IMG/VR virus record: IMGVR_UViG_3300012988_000042
Location: 1-22,761 of that record
DNA from: a virus
Length of the DNA stretch: 22,761 nt
Reading direction: 5' to 3' (one strand)
Shown: positions 5,773-14,973 of the stretch, piece by piece
How the letters are laid out: every line of letters starts with the position of its first letter
How positions within the stretch are numbered: the stretch's first letter is position 1
Notes under the pieces: generated by a model
Seen by the model: the letters and a program-made list of their open reading frames with translations, nothing else
What the model was told of the DNA's origin: nothing
The model's database searches: none
Position numbers and translations under genes: made by a program

Positions 5773-7539
5773 ATGGCACGTACCCGGGTGGAGGCCCCCG
5801 CCCCTCCGGCGACGATGATCGCCTCCGCCGTGCGGATGCAGGGCAAGCCGAAGTCGACGAAGAAGTTGGAGACCAAGGGCTGGCAGCGCCAGGCGTGGTA
5901 CTACTTCGACACCATCGGTGAGTTCGCGTTCGCGGCGAACTGGGTGGGCAACCTCCTGTCCCGGGGCGTGCTGTACGCGACACGCGACACCGGCAACGGA
6001 CCCGAGCGGGTGGCCGCGAACTCCCCGGCGGACGCCGCGCTCGACGAGTTGTTCAACGGCCAGGACGGCCGATCTCAGATGCTGCACGACATCGGCGTTG
6101 CCTACACGGTGGCCGGTGAGTGTTACATCGTCGGGTTCGAGTCCAAGGGTGTGCAGGACTGGTTCGTCACCTCACCCGAGGACCTGGTCAACAAGGCCGG
6201 AGCCTGGTGGCTCAACGACGAGGAACTCCCCACGGACGCGTTCGTCATGCGGATGTGGCGCCCCCACCCCCGCAAGCGCAAGGAGGCCACGAGCCCCGCG
6301 CGTGCGGCACTGCCGATCCTGGCCGAGATCGAGTCGCTCACCCAGCGCATCAACGCCGAGGCGTCGAGCCGACTCACCGGCGCGGGCATCATGTGGGTGC
6401 CGAACCAGATCGCCGCCGCAGCCTCCGCCCTGACGCAGGCCGACGACGGCACCCAGGTGGGCGTCACCGCAGCGTCGTTCGTGCGCACCCTCCAGGAGAC
6501 GATGGCCACCGCCATCTCCGACCCGGGCGACGCCAGCGCGATGGTCCCCATCGTCATCACCGCCGACGGCGAGTTCATCGACAAGGTCACCGTCACCAAG
6601 TTCTGGTCCGAGATGGACTCGAACCTGCTGGCGCTGCGCGAAGCGGCGACCAAGCGGCTGGGCCTGGCACTGGACATGCCACCCGAGGTGCTCACCGGTG
6701 CGGGCGAAGCGAACCACTGGAGCGCCTGGCAGATCGACGAGTCCGCCATCAAGGCGCACGCCGAGCCGCTGCTGCGCACCATCTGCGCCGCGCTCGCCAA
6801 GGGCTACCTGCGCCCGGTCCTGTCCGACGAGGACTCCATCCCCGACAACGAGGTGCGCGAGTACGGCATCGGTGCCGACACCTCGGAGATGCGCCTGCGG
6901 CCGAACCGCTCGAAGGAGGCCATCGAACTGAACGACCGGGGCATCCTGTCGAACAAGGCCACCATGCGCGAGACCGGCTTCGCCCCCGAGGACATGATGT
7001 CCCCGAAGGAGCGGGCCGAGTGGATCTTGCAGAAGATGGCCTCCGGTTCGGCCACCCCCGAGATGGTGGTGGAGGCAGCCCGCCTACTGGGCGCGAACCT
7101 GCCCACCCCGGCCATCGAGTCGACCCCCAACGAGGCGCGGCCCGACCCGTCGCTGGAGGAGCACCCCACCCGGGACATCCCCGAGCAGATCCCCGCTGCG
7201 CTGATGATGGCCAGCGAGATCATGGTGTTCCGCGCACTGGAGCGTGGCGGCAACCGGCTACGGACGAAGACCACCAACAAGTTCAGCGACGTGTCCGCCT
7301 CCGAGGTGTACCTGTTCGTGCCGTGCAACAGCGGCACGGTCGACGACTGCCTGGTGGACGCCTGGTCCAACGTGGACCGGTTCGCCCCCGACCTGGGTGT
7401 CATGCCCCAGTCGTGGGCGGCGTGCATGGACGCGTACGTGCGGGTGCTGCTCGCTGAGCGCAAGCCGCACGACCGCGCCCTGCTGGCCCGCCACCTGTCG
7501 AGGGTGACGGCCGCACCGCTGCGTCTGGTGTCGGCATGA
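5773..7539 (+). CDS. Portal protein
   Basis: This 588-residue protein forms the dodecameric ring at one capsid vertex through which DNA enters and leaves and to which the tail attaches. Typical portal features are WQRQAWYYFDTIGEFAFAANW near the N-terminus (split here as residues 37-57), a long helical stretch with ILAEIESLTQRINAEASSR, and the highly characteristic block near 295-335 containing LGLALDMPPEVLTGAGEAN and HWSAWQIDESAIKAHAEPL. The C-terminal 110 residues (after about 470) include two Cys and a helical region that may reach into the capsid. The start follows GGGGAG. The stop overlaps the next start as ATGA. Confidence 0.9.
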   Translation: MARTRVEAPAPPATMIASAVRMQGKPKSTKKLETKGWQRQAWYYFDTIGEFAFAANWVGNLLSRGVLYATRDTGNGPERVAANSPADAALDELFNGQDGRSQMLHDIGVAYTVAGECYIVGFESKGVQDWFVTSPEDLVNKAGAWWLNDEELPTDAFVMRMWRPHPRKRKEATSPARAALPILAEIESLTQRINAEASSRLTGAGIMWVPNQIAAAASALTQADDGTQVGVTAASFVRTLQETMATAISDPGDASAMVPIVITADGEFIDKVTVTKFWSEMDSNLLALREAATKRLGLALDMPPEVLTGAGEANHWSAWQIDESAIKAHAEPLLRTICAALAKGYLRPVLSDEDSIPDNEVREYGIGADTSEMRLRPNRSKEAIELNDRGILSNKATMRETGFAPEDMMSPKERAEWILQKMASGSATPEMVVEAARLLGANLPTPAIESTPNEARPDPSLEEHPTRDIPEQIPAALMMASEIMVFRALERGGNRLRTKTTNKFSDVSASEVYLFVPCNSGTVDDCLVDAWSNVDRFAPDLGVMPQSWAACMDAYVRVLLAERKPHDRALLARHLSRVTAAPLRLVSA

Positions 7540-9950
7540 TCTTCGTCGCCGACCGCGAACAGTTCGCCGCCCAGCGCCGGGCGGTCCTCACCCGTGGAGA
7601 CGATGACCTGTCCCCGGCTGTCGACGATGCCCTCGCACAGTGGGGGCAGGAGCGCTGGTGGGCACCCATCACCGAGGCCGCTGGTCGTCTGTTCGACATC
7701 ACCGCCGAGGCGGAGGGGGTACGCGACCCGGCCACAGTGGCGGGTGCCCGCGACGACTTTACCGAGGGCATGGGGGAGCGGCTCGCTGAGACGAGCGAAC
7801 CCGGGCCTGACCGTCCTGCGCAGAGCGCGCGCATCACCGCCTGGGTCTCCACCGCCACGGTCAACGCCGCCACCATGGCAGCCGCCGCAGCGGACGAGGA
7901 CGAGGTGAACCTGGAGTGGGTCACGATGCACGACCCGCTGGTGCGCGCGGCCCACGACGACGCCGACGGGCAGTCGGTGCCAGCCGGGTCCACGTTCTCC
8001 GTGGCAGGCTACGACTTGCACTACCCGGGTGAGCCTGTCGGCCCGCCCAGTGTCTGGATCAACTGCCGGTGCGTGGTTCGGCCGGGACCTGGAGGGAACA
8101 TGGCTGCCAGCGTGAACTCGGGACTGCTCACCATCCCCGACGCGGTGCACGCAGGAACGCCCGAGGGGAACACACAGTTCGTCGAGGAACTCGCCACCGC
8201 GATGGCCGAGCCCATCGCGGACGACGAGATCGACCCCGACGCTCCGGTCATCACCGACGACGACCTGGACATGGACGTGCCGTTCTACGGCGTCGCCCTG
8301 CCCGAGGGCCTGCCCACCGGGGACCGCCGCAAGTTCGCCGTCGGCTCCGTCCGGTACCGCGACCTGCCCCTGCCGTTCCGCGCCCAGCCCGCCGACATCG
8401 GTGGCCACGACGGTGCCGTCACCATCGGGCGCATCGACAACATCTGGCGCGACGAGGCCAGCGGCCTGATCAAGTACGAGGGCGTGTTCGCACGCACCCC
8501 GCAGGCCGAGGAGTACATCGCGATGAACGCCGACCGGATGCGCCGTGGCGTCTCCGTCGACGTGGACGACGCGACCGCTGAGGTGCAGAACGAGGACGGC
8601 TCCCTGTTCGACGAGGAGACGTGGCAGCAGGGCGACCCGCAGCCGTTCACCGTCGTCACCGACGGACGCATCGCCGCCATCACCGCCGTGGACATCCCCG
8701 CGTTCCAGGAGGCGTTCGTCGCCATCGGCACCTGGGCGGACCACCCCACCGACGACAACTCCGACCCGGTGGACAGTGTCGCGGTGGAGGCCGCCTGCAC
8801 CGAGTGTGAGGTCGCCGCCCTCCTGGCGAACATGCCGCCCGAGCACCTCGCGCAGTTCGAGGCGCAGTACGGCTCCGCCAACGACGAGATGCTCGGCTTC
8901 GAGTTCGAGGTCGACGACGGCACCAAGTACCGGCTCGACTCCGTCGGCCTGCACGTCTTCGCCCCCGGCACCCACGACGGTCCCGGCTGGATCACCCACC
9001 CCCGTGCCACCGAGCGCATCCGCCGCTACTGGGTGCGCGGGAAGGGCGCGGCGAAGATCCGCTGGGGCCAGCCTGGCGACTTCAACCGCTGCCGTCGCCA
9101 GTTGGTCAAGTACGTCAAGAACCCCGACTGGCTGGCGGGACTGTGCGCGAACATGCACAAGGAGGCGATCAAGTTGTGGCCAGGCCAGGAGGGTGGCAAG
9201 CGCAAGCACTCCATCGAGGGTGACCCCGCTGACGCGTTCACGCTGACCGCCGCCATCGAGTCGGACCGCCTGCCCGCCGCCTGGTTCAAGGACCCGAAGT
9301 TCGCCAAGGCCCAGCCGGTCACGGTTGACGAGGACGGCCACATCTACGGCCACCTCGCCCTGTGGTCCACCTGCCACATCGGGATCGACAAGGTGTGCAC
9401 CAGCGCACCCACGTCCCTGTCCCGGTACGCGTACTTCACCACCGGCGCTGTGCTCACCGACGAAGGCCAGGTCCCTGTCGGCAACATCACCATGGACACC
9501 GGCCACGCGGGCATGTCCCTGCGCGCCCGTCCGGCGATGGCGCACTACGACAACACCGGCTCGGTGGCCGCTGACGTGGCGGCAGGCGAGGACCAGTTCG
9601 GCATCTGGATCAACGGTGCCGTCCGCTCCACGCTGAGCAAGGAGCAGGTGCACGCCCTGCGCGCTTCCACCCTGAGCGGTGACTGGCGTCAGGTGGGCCG
9701 GAACCTGGAACTGGTGGCCGCGCTGGCCGTCAACGTCCCCGGCTTCCCCATCCCCCGTACCGCACTGGCCGCCTCGGGCGGCGAGCAGATCTCCCTGGTG
9801 GCGTCGGGTGTCGTGGCCCCCGCCACCGGGGAGGCCGAGGTCGAGCCGGACCCCGCCATCTCGGCGGAGCGTGCGGCCCGTGCCAACGCCGCGTTCAAGG
9901 CCCTGCGCGCCGCGCGCCTGGCCGCCGTACAGAGCACGTTCAGCCAGTAG
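7536..9950 (+). CDS. MuF-like / capsid maturation protease fusion
   Basis: This 804-residue protein combines parts that are often separate genes. Residues 1-185 are MuF-like, ending in LEWVTMHDPLVRAAH, the aromatic GYDLHYPGEP and INCRC typical of MuF C-termini. Residues 245-400 resemble an HK97/U35-type prohead protease: LPLPFRAQP, GGHDGAVTIGRIDNI with H291, and RRGVSVDVDD with S340 as the likely His/Ser catalytic pair. Residues 480-560 form a module (ERIRRYWVRGKGAAKIRWG, GDFNRCRRQ) found in many actinophage proteases. Residues 590-742 are the conserved part with GHLALWSTCHIG, TGHAG, MAHYDNTG and LSGDWRQVGRNLELVAAL. A helical Ala-rich tail follows. The start has no clear ribosome binding site and overlaps the portal stop. 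A strong internal start exists at residue 189. Confidence 0.8.
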   Translation: MIFVADREQFAAQRRAVLTRGDDDLSPAVDDALAQWGQERWWAPITEAAGRLFDITAEAEGVRDPATVAGARDDFTEGMGERLAETSEPGPDRPAQSARITAWVSTATVNAATMAAAAADEDEVNLEWVTMHDPLVRAAHDDADGQSVPAGSTFSVAGYDLHYPGEPVGPPSVWINCRCVVRPGPGGNMAASVNSGLLTIPDAVHAGTPEGNTQFVEELATAMAEPIADDEIDPDAPVITDDDLDMDVPFYGVALPEGLPTGDRRKFAVGSVRYRDLPLPFRAQPADIGGHDGAVTIGRIDNIWRDEASGLIKYEGVFARTPQAEEYIAMNADRMRRGVSVDVDDATAEVQNEDGSLFDEETWQQGDPQPFTVVTDGRIAAITAVDIPAFQEAFVAIGTWADHPTDDNSDPVDSVAVEAACTECEVAALLANMPPEHLAQFEAQYGSANDEMLGFEFEVDDGTKYRLDSVGLHVFAPGTHDGPGWITHPRATERIRRYWVRGKGAAKIRWGQPGDFNRCRRQLVKYVKNPDWLAGLCANMHKEAIKLWPGQEGGKRKHSIEGDPADAFTLTAAIESDRLPAAWFKDPKFAKAQPVTVDEDGHIYGHLALWSTCHIGIDKVCTSAPTSLSRYAYFTTGAVLTDEGQVPVGNITMDTGHAGMSLRARPAMAHYDNTGSVAADVAAGEDQFGIWINGAVRSTLSKEQVHALRASTLSGDWRQVGRNLELVAALAVNVPGFPIPRTALAASGGEQISLVASGVVAPATGEAEVEPDPAISAERAARANAAFKALRAARLAAVQSTFSQ
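8091..8102 (+). promoter_or_regulatory. Internal ribosome binding site and in-frame ATG inside the MuF-protease gene
   Basis: GGAGG at 8091-8095 is followed four bases later by an in-frame ATG at 8100 (codon 189). The same GGAGG-N4-start spacing is used at 297, 3427 and 22155. The site falls exactly between the MuF-like part and the protease part and would yield a 616-residue protease-only product. Confidence 0.5.
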
Positions 9951-9976: not shown

Positions 9977-10129
9977 ATGGGATGCGCGTGCAACGGCGGA
10001 GCCAGCAGTGCCAACCGCCAGTCCTACACCGTCACGTTCAGCGACGGCACCACCAAGACCTACGCCAGCGAGGTGGAGGCCCAGGCGGCCATCGCCCGGC
10101 GTGGGGGCGGCACGTACAAGATCGCGTAG
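9977..10129 (+). CDS. Small conserved phage-type protein (MGCxC start)
   Basis: This 50-residue protein follows a GAGAGAGGA ribosome binding site. It begins MGCACNGGASSANR, then has a strand-like YTVTFSDGTTKTYAS, a helix EVEAQAAIARR and a glycine-rich GGGTYK end. Tiny proteins with a Cys-rich MGC start and a GGGT end are common near capsid genes of actinophages and have no known function (I associate them with a DUF7196-like family, from memory only). It is a possible minor virion or capsid-assembly component. The gene ends six bases before the GTG of the next gene, which lacks its own ribosome binding site, so translation may carry over. Confidence 0.65.
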   Translation: MGCACNGGASSANRQSYTVTFSDGTTKTYASEVEAQAAIARRGGGTYKIA

Positions 10130-10135
10130 ACCGCA

Positions 10136-10558
10136 GTGACCCAGGTCCGCATCGACATCCGGAAGGCCACGGCCACCGGAACGAACGTCCCACTGCGGAT
10201 CGGCATGCAGTGGGCGCCCACCGTCGCGCGGAACGTCGGGTCATCGCTGGTCCTGCCTGAGTCCTTCGCGGTGCTGCTCGACTACGCACCGGTCACCATC
10301 GTGGTGGCACCCACCGGTCCCGGCTGGGCCTGGCGGGTGCGCTACTCGGTGAACTCGCAGAAGTACGACCGCTACCTGGTGGTCCCGAACTCCGCCTCGG
10401 TGGTGGAGTTCACGGACCTGGTGGAGGTGGACCCGGGGACGCTGGCGCCCAGCGCGCTGTCCTCCGGGTCCATCCTCTACGCCACCGACACGGGTGCCCC
10501 CATGCGGGTCAGCGTCCTGTCCAACGGCACCATCACCGCTGTCCCGGTAGGTCCCTGA
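10136..10558 (+). CDS. Putative head fibre/decoration protein, paralogue 1
   Basis: This 140-residue protein starts at a GTG with no good ribosome binding site, six bases after the preceding stop. Residues 1-103 are a near-copy of the next gene: MTQVRIDIRK at the start, VLPESF, PGWAWRVRY, DRYLVVPNSASVVEFTDL and VEVDPGTL. The W-x-W-R-V, RYLVVP and DLVEVDP pattern is common in N-terminal domains of actinophage fibre-like and tail proteins. Its position between the protease and capsid genes points to a head-attached fibre or decoration role (inference). The C-terminal 35 residues differ fully from the paralogue and are beta-like and Ser/Thr/Val-rich. The stop overlaps the next start (TGATG). Confidence 0.65.
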   Translation: MTQVRIDIRKATATGTNVPLRIGMQWAPTVARNVGSSLVLPESFAVLLDYAPVTIVVAPTGPGWAWRVRYSVNSQKYDRYLVVPNSASVVEFTDLVEVDPGTLAPSALSSGSILYATDTGAPMRVSVLSNGTITAVPVGP

Positions 10559-10998
10559 TGACTCAGGTGCGCATCGACATCCGCAAGCCGTCCATCACCG
10601 GGGTGAACGTCCCGCTGATCATCGGCATGGTGTGGTCACCCAGCACCCAGCGTGTAGTCAACGACGCGCTGGTCGTCCCGGAGTCCTTCTCGGTGACCCT
10701 CGGGCAGACGCCGACCATCATCGAGGTGGCACCCACCCAGCCCGACTGGGTGTGGCGCGTGCGGTACACCGCCAACTCCGAGAAGTTCGACCGCTACCTG
10801 GTGGTCCCGAACTCGGCCACGGTCGTGGACTTCACAGACCTGGTGGAAGTCGACCCGGGGACCTTGTCTCCGCAGATCGAACCGGAGGCCGCATGGTGGG
10901 CCTCTGTCCAGTACATGCTCCGGGGTGTCATCCTTGCCCCGTCTGACCCCGTCCCGGCAGGGCTACCTCCCGGGTCCCTTGTGTTCCGCACCCAGTAG
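10558..10998 (+). CDS. Putative head fibre/decoration protein, paralogue 2
   Basis: This 146-residue protein starts at an ATG overlapping the previous stop. Its first 103 residues are closely similar to paralogue 1 (MTQVRIDIRK, VVPESFSV, WVWRVRYTANSEKFDRYLV, VEVDPGTL), showing a recent tandem duplication. The tail is different: it holds AAWWASVQYMLRGVILAPSD and ends PAGLPPGSLVFRTQ, a closing motif seen in phage fibre-type proteins. The two tails may bind different partners. No enzymatic motif is visible. Probably virion-associated, by context. Confidence 0.65.
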   Translation: MTQVRIDIRKPSITGVNVPLIIGMVWSPSTQRVVNDALVVPESFSVTLGQTPTIIEVAPTQPDWVWRVRYTANSEKFDRYLVVPNSATVVDFTDLVEVDPGTLSPQIEPEAAWWASVQYMLRGVILAPSDPVPAGLPPGSLVFRTQ

Positions 10999-11431: not shown

Positions 11432-13099
11432 GTGGCGATTTCGTTCTTTCAGACCGCGTCATGGGCGACGGCCGGTACGGTTAACGGCACTGCCTCGACC
11501 TACAAGGACATCACCTTTACCGGTGTCTCCGTTGGTGACCTGCTCGTCGTCGGTGCGGCCGGTGAGAACACTGCCACAACTGGTACTCGATCGGTCACCA
11601 CGCAGTCCGGCACGACCGGAGCGTGGACCACCAGTTTCCCGACCCCTGCCAACGCCGCAGACACGGACGTCTTCCTGGCGCGCGCTGTCGCCACCTCGTC
11701 CGGAACCATCGTCGTCCGAGGGCAGGTCCGCCTGACCCCCTCCTCGCTGCACATGGGCGTGTGCGGGTGGTTGATCCCAGCGGCGGAGTGGAACTCCTCG
11801 GGCACGATCACGCAGGCCGTGTTCACGGGTGATGCCGACGGCCAGGCGTCCCTCGTCTGTACGGCAGGCTCCACGTACACCGTCCTCTACGTCGGTGCCG
11901 GTTGGGACGCGCTCGGCAGCACCACCACCCCCACGCCCGCAGGTGGAACGAACCGCGTAGCGGTCCTCGACTCCAGCCACTACACCGTCGAGGTCTTCGA
12001 CTGGACCGCGCAGGCTGCTGGCACCCGCAACTACGGTCCGGCCGCGCTGACCGGACGCGACTACACCGGCGCGGTCCTGGCCATCCCGGAGGCGGCGGGC
12101 GGCGGTACGAACACCGGGTCCTTGGCCGCGTCCACCAACCGGCCCACCTCGGTGATCACGGGCGCGTCCGTCAACACCGGCTCGCTGGCAGCCTCCACCC
12201 CGCGAGCCACCTCGGCCCTGACGGGCGACTCGGTCAACCCCGGCAGCCTCACCGCGCAGACCAACCGTCCCACGTCCGCGATCACGGGCGACTCGACCAA
12301 CCCTGGTGTGCTCGCGGCCACGACGCCGCGCCCGACCTCCGCGATCACTGGCGACTCGGTCAACCCCGGCTCCTTGGCGGCGGCGGCGAATCGACCCACG
12401 TCTGCCATCACCGGCACGCAGACCAACCCCGGCACGCTGGCAGCGTCGACCCCGAGGATCACTTCGTCCATCACGGACAGCGCCCCAGTCAACGCGGGCT
12501 CCCTGGCGGCGAGCACGCCACGTATCACCTCCGCGATCACGGGCCAGTCCGTCAACGCTGGCTCGCTGGCCGCCAGCACCAACTCCCCGACGAGCGTCAT
12601 CACCGGGACACAGACCAACCCAGGAAGCCTGGCGGCCTCCACGCCGAGGGTCACGTTCCAGGGCAGCGACTCCGCGGTCAACGTCGGCACCCTGGCCGCG
12701 TCCACACCGCGCCCCACCTCCGTCATCACTGGGCAGTCGGTGAACTCCGGCTCCCTGGTGGCATCCACCGCGCGCCCCACTGCTGCGATGACCGGACAGT
12801 CCGTCAACGCTGGGGTGCTCGCGGCCTCCACGCAGCGGCCGACCATCGCGTTCACTGGGCAGTCCCTCAACACCGGTGCGTTGGTCGCCGCCACCAAGCG
12901 GCCCACCATGCTGCTGACCGGGCAGTCGGTCAACGCGGGCGTCCTGGCCGCCGTCCTGCCGAGGATCACCGCGCTCATCACTGGGCAACTGGTCTCCTCC
13001 AACGCCACCCACTGGTTCACCCCTGCTGGGGACCCGGTGACCCTGGAAGGCGTGTGGAACGGGACCAGCATCCAGCCGGTCACGGTCACTGTCACCTGA
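11432..13099 (+). CDS. Repeat-containing putative head fibre protein
   Basis: This 555-residue protein starts at GTG after GGGGAGG. Residues 1-226 form a globular beta-rich domain (TYKDITFTGVSVGDLLVVGA, later VLYVGAGWDALGST, YTVEVFDWTAQAAGTRNYG) resembling adhesive or lectin-like domains of phage fibres. Residues 227-521 are fourteen tandem 21-residue repeats with consensus N-x-G-S-L-A-A-S-T-x-R-P-T-S-x-I-T-G-x-S-V; repeat 6 has one extra residue. The last 34 residues (HWFTPAGDPVTLEGVWNG...) form a capping tail. There is no catalytic motif. I infer a fibre or spike, head-attached because it lies directly before the capsid gene, but a tail role cannot be excluded. Codon use in the first part is less G/C-biased than its neighbours. 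Confidence 0.65.
   Translation: MAISFFQTASWATAGTVNGTASTYKDITFTGVSVGDLLVVGAAGENTATTGTRSVTTQSGTTGAWTTSFPTPANAADTDVFLARAVATSSGTIVVRGQVRLTPSSLHMGVCGWLIPAAEWNSSGTITQAVFTGDADGQASLVCTAGSTYTVLYVGAGWDALGSTTTPTPAGGTNRVAVLDSSHYTVEVFDWTAQAAGTRNYGPAALTGRDYTGAVLAIPEAAGGGTNTGSLAASTNRPTSVITGASVNTGSLAASTPRATSALTGDSVNPGSLTAQTNRPTSAITGDSTNPGVLAATTPRPTSAITGDSVNPGSLAAAANRPTSAITGTQTNPGTLAASTPRITSSITDSAPVNAGSLAASTPRITSAITGQSVNAGSLAASTNSPTSVITGTQTNPGSLAASTPRVTFQGSDSAVNVGTLAASTPRPTSVITGQSVNSGSLVASTARPTAAMTGQSVNAGVLAASTQRPTIAFTGQSLNTGALVAATKRPTMLLTGQSVNAGVLAAVLPRITALITGQLVSSNATHWFTPAGDPVTLEGVWNGTSIQPVTVTVT
12110..12994 (+). repeat. Fourteen tandem 63-bp coding repeats
   Basis: The block encodes 14 copies of a 21-residue unit beginning Asn-x-Gly and ending Thr-Gly-x-x-Val. 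At DNA level copies share words such as GGCTCCCTGGCGGC and ATCACGGGC, but have diverged, so it is not a recent slippage product throughout. All copies are in frame. It spans residues 227-521 of the host protein. Confidence 0.9.
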
Positions 13100-13245: not shown

Positions 13246-14973
13246 GTGTTCAAGATCCCCGGAGTCACCAAGGACTCCACGCCGGAGCAGATCGCCGAGG
13301 CGATCAGCGCCCACCTCGCCAGCCTGGACAAGGCCGGTCTCGCCTCCGCCAAGGACGCTGCGCTCGCCGAGGCCCGCACCATCGGTGCCCCCGAGGACAT
13401 CAGCGACGAGGACCTCGCGGTCCTGGAGACGCTGGCCAAGTTCATCGGTGCCGCCGACGCCGCGATCAGCGAGCAGACCGCCGCCGAGACGCTGCGCGCC
13501 GACCGTCTCGCCGCAGCCCGTGCGCTGCTCGTCGAGCCGGAGGTCGAGCCCGAGGCCGAGGTCGTCGAGCCGCAGCCCGAGGTGACCGACGAGGTCATCG
13601 TCGAGGAGCCCGTCCTGGAGCCGGTCGCGGCCTCCACCACCCCGAAGGAGAAGGTGTCCGCCGTGCGCCGTGCCGCCGCCGCTGCCCTGCCGGTCGACGT
13701 GGAGGTCACGCCGTCGCGTGGCCGCGCGACGATCACCGCCGCAGCCGACCTGCCGGGCGTCTCGCTCGGGTCCACGTTCGAGTCGATGCGCGACCTGCGC
13801 GAGCCCACCCAGCGCGTGCTGGAGGCCCTCGCCCGTGGCACGTCGGGTCGCACGGAGAAGCCCATCGCGCAGTTCAACCTCCAGCGCAGCGACGACCTGT
13901 ACGCGGAGGGTGACCTCTCCTTCCAGGAGGCGCTCGACCGGGCGGTCGACGAGACCCGCCTCCCCGGCGGCTCGCTCATCGCGGCCGGTGGCTGGTGCGC
14001 CCCGTCCGAGACCATCTACGACCTGTGCGAGGGGGAGACCCTGGAGGGCCTGTGGGACATCCCCTCGGTCAACGTCGCGCGTGGTGGCCTGAACTTCACC
14101 AAGGGTCCGCAGTTCTCCGACTTCTACGGGCTGTCGGCGAACTTCATCAACCAGACCGAGGCGCAGGCCATCGCGGGGACGCCCAAGCCGTGCGTCTCGA
14201 TCACCTGCCCCCCGTTCACGGACGTGCGCCTCGGCGTCACGGGCCTCTGCTTCACCGTCCCGATCCTCACCGAGGCGGCCTACCCGGAACTGGTCCAGCG
14301 CTACGTGAACGGCCTCACGGTCGCCCACGCGCACTACAAGAGCCTGGACCTGATCACCCGCGCGCTGGCCATCGCCGGTGCGGCGGTGCCGGTCGTCAAC
14401 CCGTGGCCGACGCTGTCGGGCTCGCTGCTCGCGGCGCTGGAACTGGTCGTCAACGGTGAGCGTCAGCGCTACCGTCTCGGCCTGAACGCCACGCTGGAGG
14501 CCGTCCTCCCGTTCTGGATCAAGGCGGCCCTGCGTGCCGACCTGTCGATCCGCAACGGCGTCGACTACCTGTCGGTCACCGACCAGATGGTCGACGCGTG
14601 GTTCTCCGAGCGTGGCATCCGCGCCCAGTACGTCTACGGCTGGCAGCCGCTGGTCCCGACCTCGGCCGGTGCCGGTGTCGCCATCGACTACCCGGCCACC
14701 CTGGAGGTCCTCGTCTACCCGGCGGGCACCTTCGTCCAGGGCACCAAGGACGTCATCACGCTCAACGGCGTGTACGACGCGGCGGGCCTCGCGCTCAACC
14801 AGTACACGGGCCTGTTCACGGAGGAGGGCATCTCCCTCATGAACATGTGCTACACCCCGAAGCGGATCTCCCTGCCCATGGACATCACCGGCCTCACGGC
14901 GGCGGCGTTCATCAACCAGGACTACGGCACGGTCCCGCCGAAGATCGTCGCGGCGAGCATCCCCGAACTGTGA
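13246..14973 (+). CDS. Major capsid protein with N-terminal scaffold-like region
   Basis: I chose GTG 13246 (575 residues) because TGGAGGG lies six bases upstream; an in-frame GTG at 13195 has no ribosome binding site. The first ~180 residues are helical and acidic, with a Glu/Pro/Val stretch at about 95-126. This resembles the delta/scaffold domain that is removed by the maturation protease in HK97-like phages. The remainder is the HK97-fold shell part: QRVLEALARGTSGRTEKPIA, AAGGWCAPSETIYDLCEGET (C251, C261), VNVARGGLNFTKGPQFSDFY, KPCVSITCPPFTDVRLG and LTEAAYPELVQRYVN. Such Cys-containing capsid proteins are typical of actinophages. No separate scaffold gene is seen between protease and capsid. 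A strong terminator follows. Confidence 0.88.
   Translation: MFKIPGVTKDSTPEQIAEAISAHLASLDKAGLASAKDAALAEARTIGAPEDISDEDLAVLETLAKFIGAADAAISEQTAAETLRADRLAAARALLVEPEVEPEAEVVEPQPEVTDEVIVEEPVLEPVAASTTPKEKVSAVRRAAAAALPVDVEVTPSRGRATITAAADLPGVSLGSTFESMRDLREPTQRVLEALARGTSGRTEKPIAQFNLQRSDDLYAEGDLSFQEALDRAVDETRLPGGSLIAAGGWCAPSETIYDLCEGETLEGLWDIPSVNVARGGLNFTKGPQFSDFYGLSANFINQTEAQAIAGTPKPCVSITCPPFTDVRLGVTGLCFTVPILTEAAYPELVQRYVNGLTVAHAHYKSLDLITRALAIAGAAVPVVNPWPTLSGSLLAALELVVNGERQRYRLGLNATLEAVLPFWIKAALRADLSIRNGVDYLSVTDQMVDAWFSERGIRAQYVYGWQPLVPTSAGAGVAIDYPATLEVLVYPAGTFVQGTKDVITLNGVYDAAGLALNQYTGLFTEEGISLMNMCYTPKRISLPMDITGLTAAAFINQDYGTVPPKIVAASIPEL

Follow-up and report, generated by a model that had tools for sequence, protein, structure and literature searches.

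Does the MuF–protease gene of this phage encode one protein or two? The gene (7536-9950) lies in the window, the whole 22,761-nt stretch of viral DNA that was analysed, and specifies a MuF–protease fusion of 804 aa that contains a ribosome-binding sequence and an in-frame start codon between its two parts. We propose, with a probability of roughly 0.8 and on the strength of sequence comparison, that it is a nested gene, which would yield a MuF–protease tied to the portal and, from the internal start, a protease free of MuF.

The portal gene, the fusion gene with its parts and the small ORF behind it lie on the + strand. The portal gene (5773-7539; PHROG 776 portal, E 6e-134) overlaps the full-length start of the fusion with its stop codon (ATGA), and the 804-aa gene is placed between the portal and major capsid genes, with extra genes before the capsid. 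The window also encodes a terminase, and a capsid relative is found at about 13588-14931. Downstream of the protease gene lies an ORF of about 50 aa (9977-10129) that is kept in distant relatives, with 49% identity to Pureglobe5 gp27 and 38% to OneinaGillian gp23 by tblastn. It is followed by two adjacent genes (10136-10558 and 10558-10998) whose products start VTQVRIDIRK and MTQVRIDIRK; the pair looks like a tandem duplication that was inserted ahead of the major capsid gene. In the Arthrobacter relatives the capsid gene comes straight after the protease gene, unlike in the window.

The domain layout of the fusion was established from its ORF, profile matches, an AlphaFold model built with 33 sequences and the annotation of phage relatives. 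The N-terminal MuF domain (aa 88-181, 7797-8078) matched Pfam PF04233 with E 8.9e-07 (30.1 bits against a cut-off of 29.6), as did 40 of 41 aligned homologues, and it ends with an NCRC motif (aa 176-179, 8061-8072) that is invariant in all 41. In the model, the last MuF strand spans residues 180-185 and disorder begins at 188. The acidic residues of the translation mark the linker that follows (aa 188-244, 8097-8267), where pLDDT is below 50 at residues 188-212 and over most of 222-240 (222-233 and 235-240). The first protease-like domain (aa 245-402, 8268-8741; PHROG 859 and PHROG 3244, the latter with E 0.009) starts in the model at about residue 249 and carries a consensus GH near residue 291 and a serine, S340, invariant in the 41 aligned homologues; beta-rich domains were modelled at about 249-397 and 602-732. 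The second protease-like domain (aa 585-772, 9288-9851) matched PHROG 18402 'head maturation protease' with E 3e-58. Searched as a whole, the model gave Foldseek matches to HK97-type prohead proteases in a viral library and a weak match to T4 gp21 (5jbl; probability 0.98-0.99 but E 0.04). Pfam Peptidase_S78 did not match the window protein and matched only 1 of the 41 homologues (2.2e-04), so the protease assignment is drawn from PHROG, the structure and deposited annotation, in which the top phage relatives are named 'capsid maturation protease (and MuF-like fusion)'. A profile search of PDB sequences gave no match, and a single-sequence fold of the 616-aa form was uninformative (pLDDT 35). 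With its N-terminal MuF domain, the protease behind it and its position between portal and capsid genes, the window gene belongs to the actinobacteriophage fusion group.

The protein holds two tandem protease-like domains, both matching head-protease families. The first was not detected in L075 and L091-L094, and in the Gordonia phages L109-L111 the second is N-terminal and the first absent. Between the two sits a small inserted domain of roughly 67 residues (aa 491-557, 9006-9206; PHROG 6439, WITHP..RIRRYWVRGKGAAKIRWG..), which is not confined to head genes: stand-alone hypothetical proteins of Gordonia, Rhodococcus and Nocardia phages match it, some of them encoded near genome ends.

The internal site, ...CGGGACCTGGAGGGAACATGGCT..., consists of GGAGG (8091-8095), the four bases GAAC and ATG (8100-8102) in the frame of the 7536 start. 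A sequence-only reading of this DNA had placed such a pair at codon 189 of 804, at the end of MuF and ahead of an acidic linker, with a predicted 616-residue product (8100-9950) and a full-length start that overlaps the portal stop without a visible ribosome-binding site. These sequence features were borne out: Pfam MuF ends at 181, disorder begins at 188, M189 is about the first residue of the disordered linker, the frame from 8100 encodes 616 residues, and only a 4-nt partial match, GGTG, precedes the ATG at 7536. The internal SD is on a par with several SD-led starts of the same phage (AGGAG at 11008, 16055 and 17053; GGAGG at 11432), and its spacing of 4 is at the short end of the range. 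RNA folding revealed no special openness at the internal start (0.44 against a gene mean of 0.38), while the full-length start was more closed (0.15).

A first alternative is that the site is a chance SD-like string, in which GGA GGG happens to code Gly-Gly ahead of Met in a flexible linker. Considered alone, the window is compatible with it. GGAGG-N3..9-ATG was not rarer than chance in the window (6 observed against 5.9 expected from dinucleotide shuffles), and synonymous-codon resampling of the window site, given its peptide, was not significant (p about 0.1 for the exact match and 0.30 for the energy score). A single site is weak evidence, and the claim therefore depends on the homologues.

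A profile scan yielded 80 loci, to which phage records with deposited annotation were added, and one representative was kept per 80%-identity group. A hit was defined as an exact SD match of at least 5 nt with an in-frame ATG or GTG, and for the null each gene's amino acids were kept while its synonymous codons were drawn anew from that gene. In the 65 representatives of the NCRC-anchored test, an SD with a start was found 10-28 codons after NCRC in 27, compared with 7.1±2.3 expected, whereas about 5% of same-gene windows and 1 and 0 representatives in the other two frames gave hits. In the protease-anchored test, which covered 60 MuF–protease fusions with a located first protease domain, 39 had a strong SD with a start in the 75 codons before that domain, compared with 17.9±2.8 under resampling, 8.6 when windows of equal length were placed elsewhere in these genes, and 8 and 0 out of frame. 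Weighting by 25 clusters left 16.6 observed against 7.9±2.0 (synonymous null) and 3.4 (windows elsewhere); the relatives are not fully independent, and this weighting reduces their kinship without removing it. As the excess (27 versus 7; 39 versus 18) was measured with fixed amino acids, it points to a nucleotide-level signal and indicates, from sequence comparison, that the SD/start pair is under selection in the relatives.

Equivalent sites were found in most homologues, and they vary in peptide, codon phase and spacing or distance, and start with ATG or GTG, while the SD stays. The site peptides include PGPGGNM, PGLGGDM, RPVGGEM, PVVGDEM, RSGGITM, DSGGVTM, ADEGVAM, TETGVAM, LLTGGLM and TADGGEM, as well as ARGDSAM (GTG in the sister phage Pepe25), VEGALTV (GTG), FKV and IERTAM. 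The internal site is not universal among fusions: no recognisable site was present in L009, L051, L052 and L068, nor near the protease in L077 and L082. Combined Fisher tests over all representatives were weak (p=0.03 with the energy score and 0.08), as site-less genes weigh against the signal. The energy-based SD score with synonymous resampling was set aside in favour of the exact-match score, which separates better; with the energy score, many ways of coding Gly-Gly do well through G:U pairing, and genes lacking a site dilute the result.

Among the closest relatives, the contigs L002 and L003 are near-identical to the window gene, with eight differences that all lie away from the site. L004 (63% identity over the matched segment) keeps GGAGG-N4-ATG intact; the stretch TGGATCAACTGCCGGTGCGTGGTTCGGCCGGGACCTGGAGGGAACATG is identical and divergence begins directly after the ATG. 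Within 10 codons of the start, 10 of 10 codons for identical residues are the same in the window and L004, compared with 74% over the gene. L028 (49%) has GGAGG-AGAC-ATG and, as in the window, a full-length start without an SD. The check proposed in the sequence-only reading, whether the pair is kept when surrounding codons vary, came out in its favour: GGAGG-N4-ATG is intact in L004 and L028, and across the relatives the SD/start combination persists while codons and amino acids change. Pooled in 5-codon bins over all homologue pairs, synonymous conservation showed no visible rise at the site; only the comparison of the window with L004 did.

Chance is unlikely to account for these observations, since the enrichment occurs at the same place and in frame only across 25 clusters. 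Site glycines also use the rare codon GGA in 35 of 50 cases compared with 12% gene-wide, a figure biased by site choice, and in most lineages with an inserted 2H domain the signal lies past the insertion. In Arthrobacter-type relatives, MuF and protease are separated by a 2H phosphoesterase domain (2'-5' RNA ligase superfamily). These relatives have no site after MuF; in most of them it lies behind 2H, at a distance of roughly 38 to 60 codons from the protease, with peptides PLGGNV, PLGGDV, PLGGAV or LGEAM (for example cttGGAGGgaacGTG and ctaGGAGaagcaATG, with further sites CTAGGAGAAGCAATG, CTTGGAGGGAACGTG, CTTGGAGGCGACGTG, CTAGGAGGGGCCGTG and others). In B-cluster mycobacteriophages, AGGAG (AGGA in Thora) stands ahead of an APSE..xxM start, and the harman site is AAGGAGACCCGATG. 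A position behind 2H and next to the protease suits a signal that releases the protease from whatever is fused ahead of it. In the Curtobacterium phages Sunfish and Kithara (L016 and L017), the homologous gene starts with 2H and has no MuF match, and no good site was found behind 2H in these two MuF-less genes; they are annotated 'membrane protein' and 'RNA ligase', and their products are probably mis-named head proteases.

The site could also be a relic of a time when MuF and protease were separate genes, with the old ribosome-binding site of the protease persisting unused after fusion. Separate arrangements are indeed known. In the split-gene Microbacterium phages Megan, Gina and Jollipop and the Gordonia phages Zitch and Gaea, a MuF-less protease is a protein of its own, MuF and protease being encoded by two genes with extra small genes between them rather than by one nested gene as proposed for the window, and MO526 and Phlop also encode MuF and protease separately. 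An unused site should decay, yet this one persists across lineages that share ≤60% identity and differ in its peptide, and where a 2H domain is present the site usually follows it. A relic is therefore quite improbable.

Maturation proteases often process themselves, and the boundary often reads Gly-x-Met, so a free protease might arise by self-cleavage at a Gly-rich site rather than by initiation. We consider this very unlikely as the explanation of the site: the peptide is not conserved (RGDSAM, EGALTV, FKV, DEGVAM, IERTAM) and the excess over fixed-amino-acid resampling is a nucleotide-level one, although cleavage could still happen as well. Least probable of all is that an SD-like sequence at the domain boundary slows ribosomes to aid folding, since SD cores, though about twofold denser in the linker (2.8 per 100 codons versus 1.3 elsewhere), are followed there by an in-frame start at initiation spacing in 39% of cases versus 10% elsewhere (p=2e-12), and pausing needs no start codon; the in-frame starts therefore argue for initiation.

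In the nested-gene reading, initiation at 7536, coupled with the portal stop, would give the 804-aa MuF–protease, and ribosomes binding GGAGG at 8091-8095 would start at the ATG at 8100 and make the 616-aa MuF-less protease. The prediction of the latter product draws on the conservation of the internal start, unchanged in L002, L003 and L004 and with an equivalent in L028, and on the separate protease of the split-gene relatives. By analogy with SPP1 gp7, the MuF part would dock a few copies on the portal, and the free form would supply the remaining protease for capsid maturation. SPP1 gp7, of the MuF type, is likewise encoded directly after the portal, and 1-3 copies of it are bound to the portal of each virion (PMC5576092, PMC4493119); it differs in being single-domain, with no fused protease and no known nested product. 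If the fusion were held to a copy number of this kind, a protease made solely in fused form would be in short supply, and an independent internal start would make up for this. The phages with separate MuF and protease genes reach the same end by another route.

The sequence-only reading had likewise suggested two nested products, with the fusion in low amount. Its two-product part is well supported by the comparative evidence of an SD/start pair kept while codons and amino acids vary. The sequences show the signal, its position at the domain boundary and selection on it in relatives; from these we infer the synthesis of both forms, their amounts and their locations, with relative abundance taken from stoichiometry in other phages. 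The argument that a missing full-length ribosome-binding site implies a low amount found no support as a general rule, because several relatives have a strong SD at that start (8 nt in L069, 9 nt in L024, GGAGG in L010).

Phage lambda offers a known case of nested in-frame head genes, C/Nu3, whose long form is the protease and whose short form is the scaffold. The window gene resembles this pair in its internal start, shared C-terminus and position as a head-morphogenesis gene adjoining the portal gene; it differs in that its short product would itself be the protease, to which the long one would add a portal-associated MuF, as read here from sequence. An internal start with a ribosome-binding site, the same frame, a shared stop and conservation beyond the amino acids make it a probable nested head gene. 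The actinobacteriophage fusions Beagle gp25, OneinaGillian gp22 and Thora gp9 have the same position after the portal and the same MuF and protease domains, and the genes that follow, the small ORF and the major capsid gene, agree as well; in the regions examined they are annotated as one protein with no internal start marked. The internal start is nevertheless present, though unannotated, in OneinaGillian (AGAGGAGATTCCGCCATG) and in the B-cluster phages Hydro and Imvubu. A paper on cluster EG phages mentions a single fused gene only (PMC7302621), and no published internal start or nested product in a MuF–protease gene was found in the open-access literature. The arrangement would thus be a known one for head genes, in a MuF–protease/free-protease version that we did not find described in that literature.

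More tentatively, and with slightly less than even confidence, we suggest that across a very large set of actinophages one gene gives a MuF form tethered to the portal alongside a free one, with the start staying beside the protease despite inserted cargo such as 2H. Relatives of the protein occur in 993 phage-collection records, and many of these name just one MuF–protease fusion; if this suggestion is true, hundreds of phage genomes lack the internal start in their annotation. Selection can act on SD sites within genes, and comparative synonymous tests find them where gene callers miss them. The fusion would then position the protease, and any cargo, at the portal vertex, with the free form filling the head, and a free protease encoded by the same gene would give a simple answer to how a protease can be fused to a protein of 1-3 copies.
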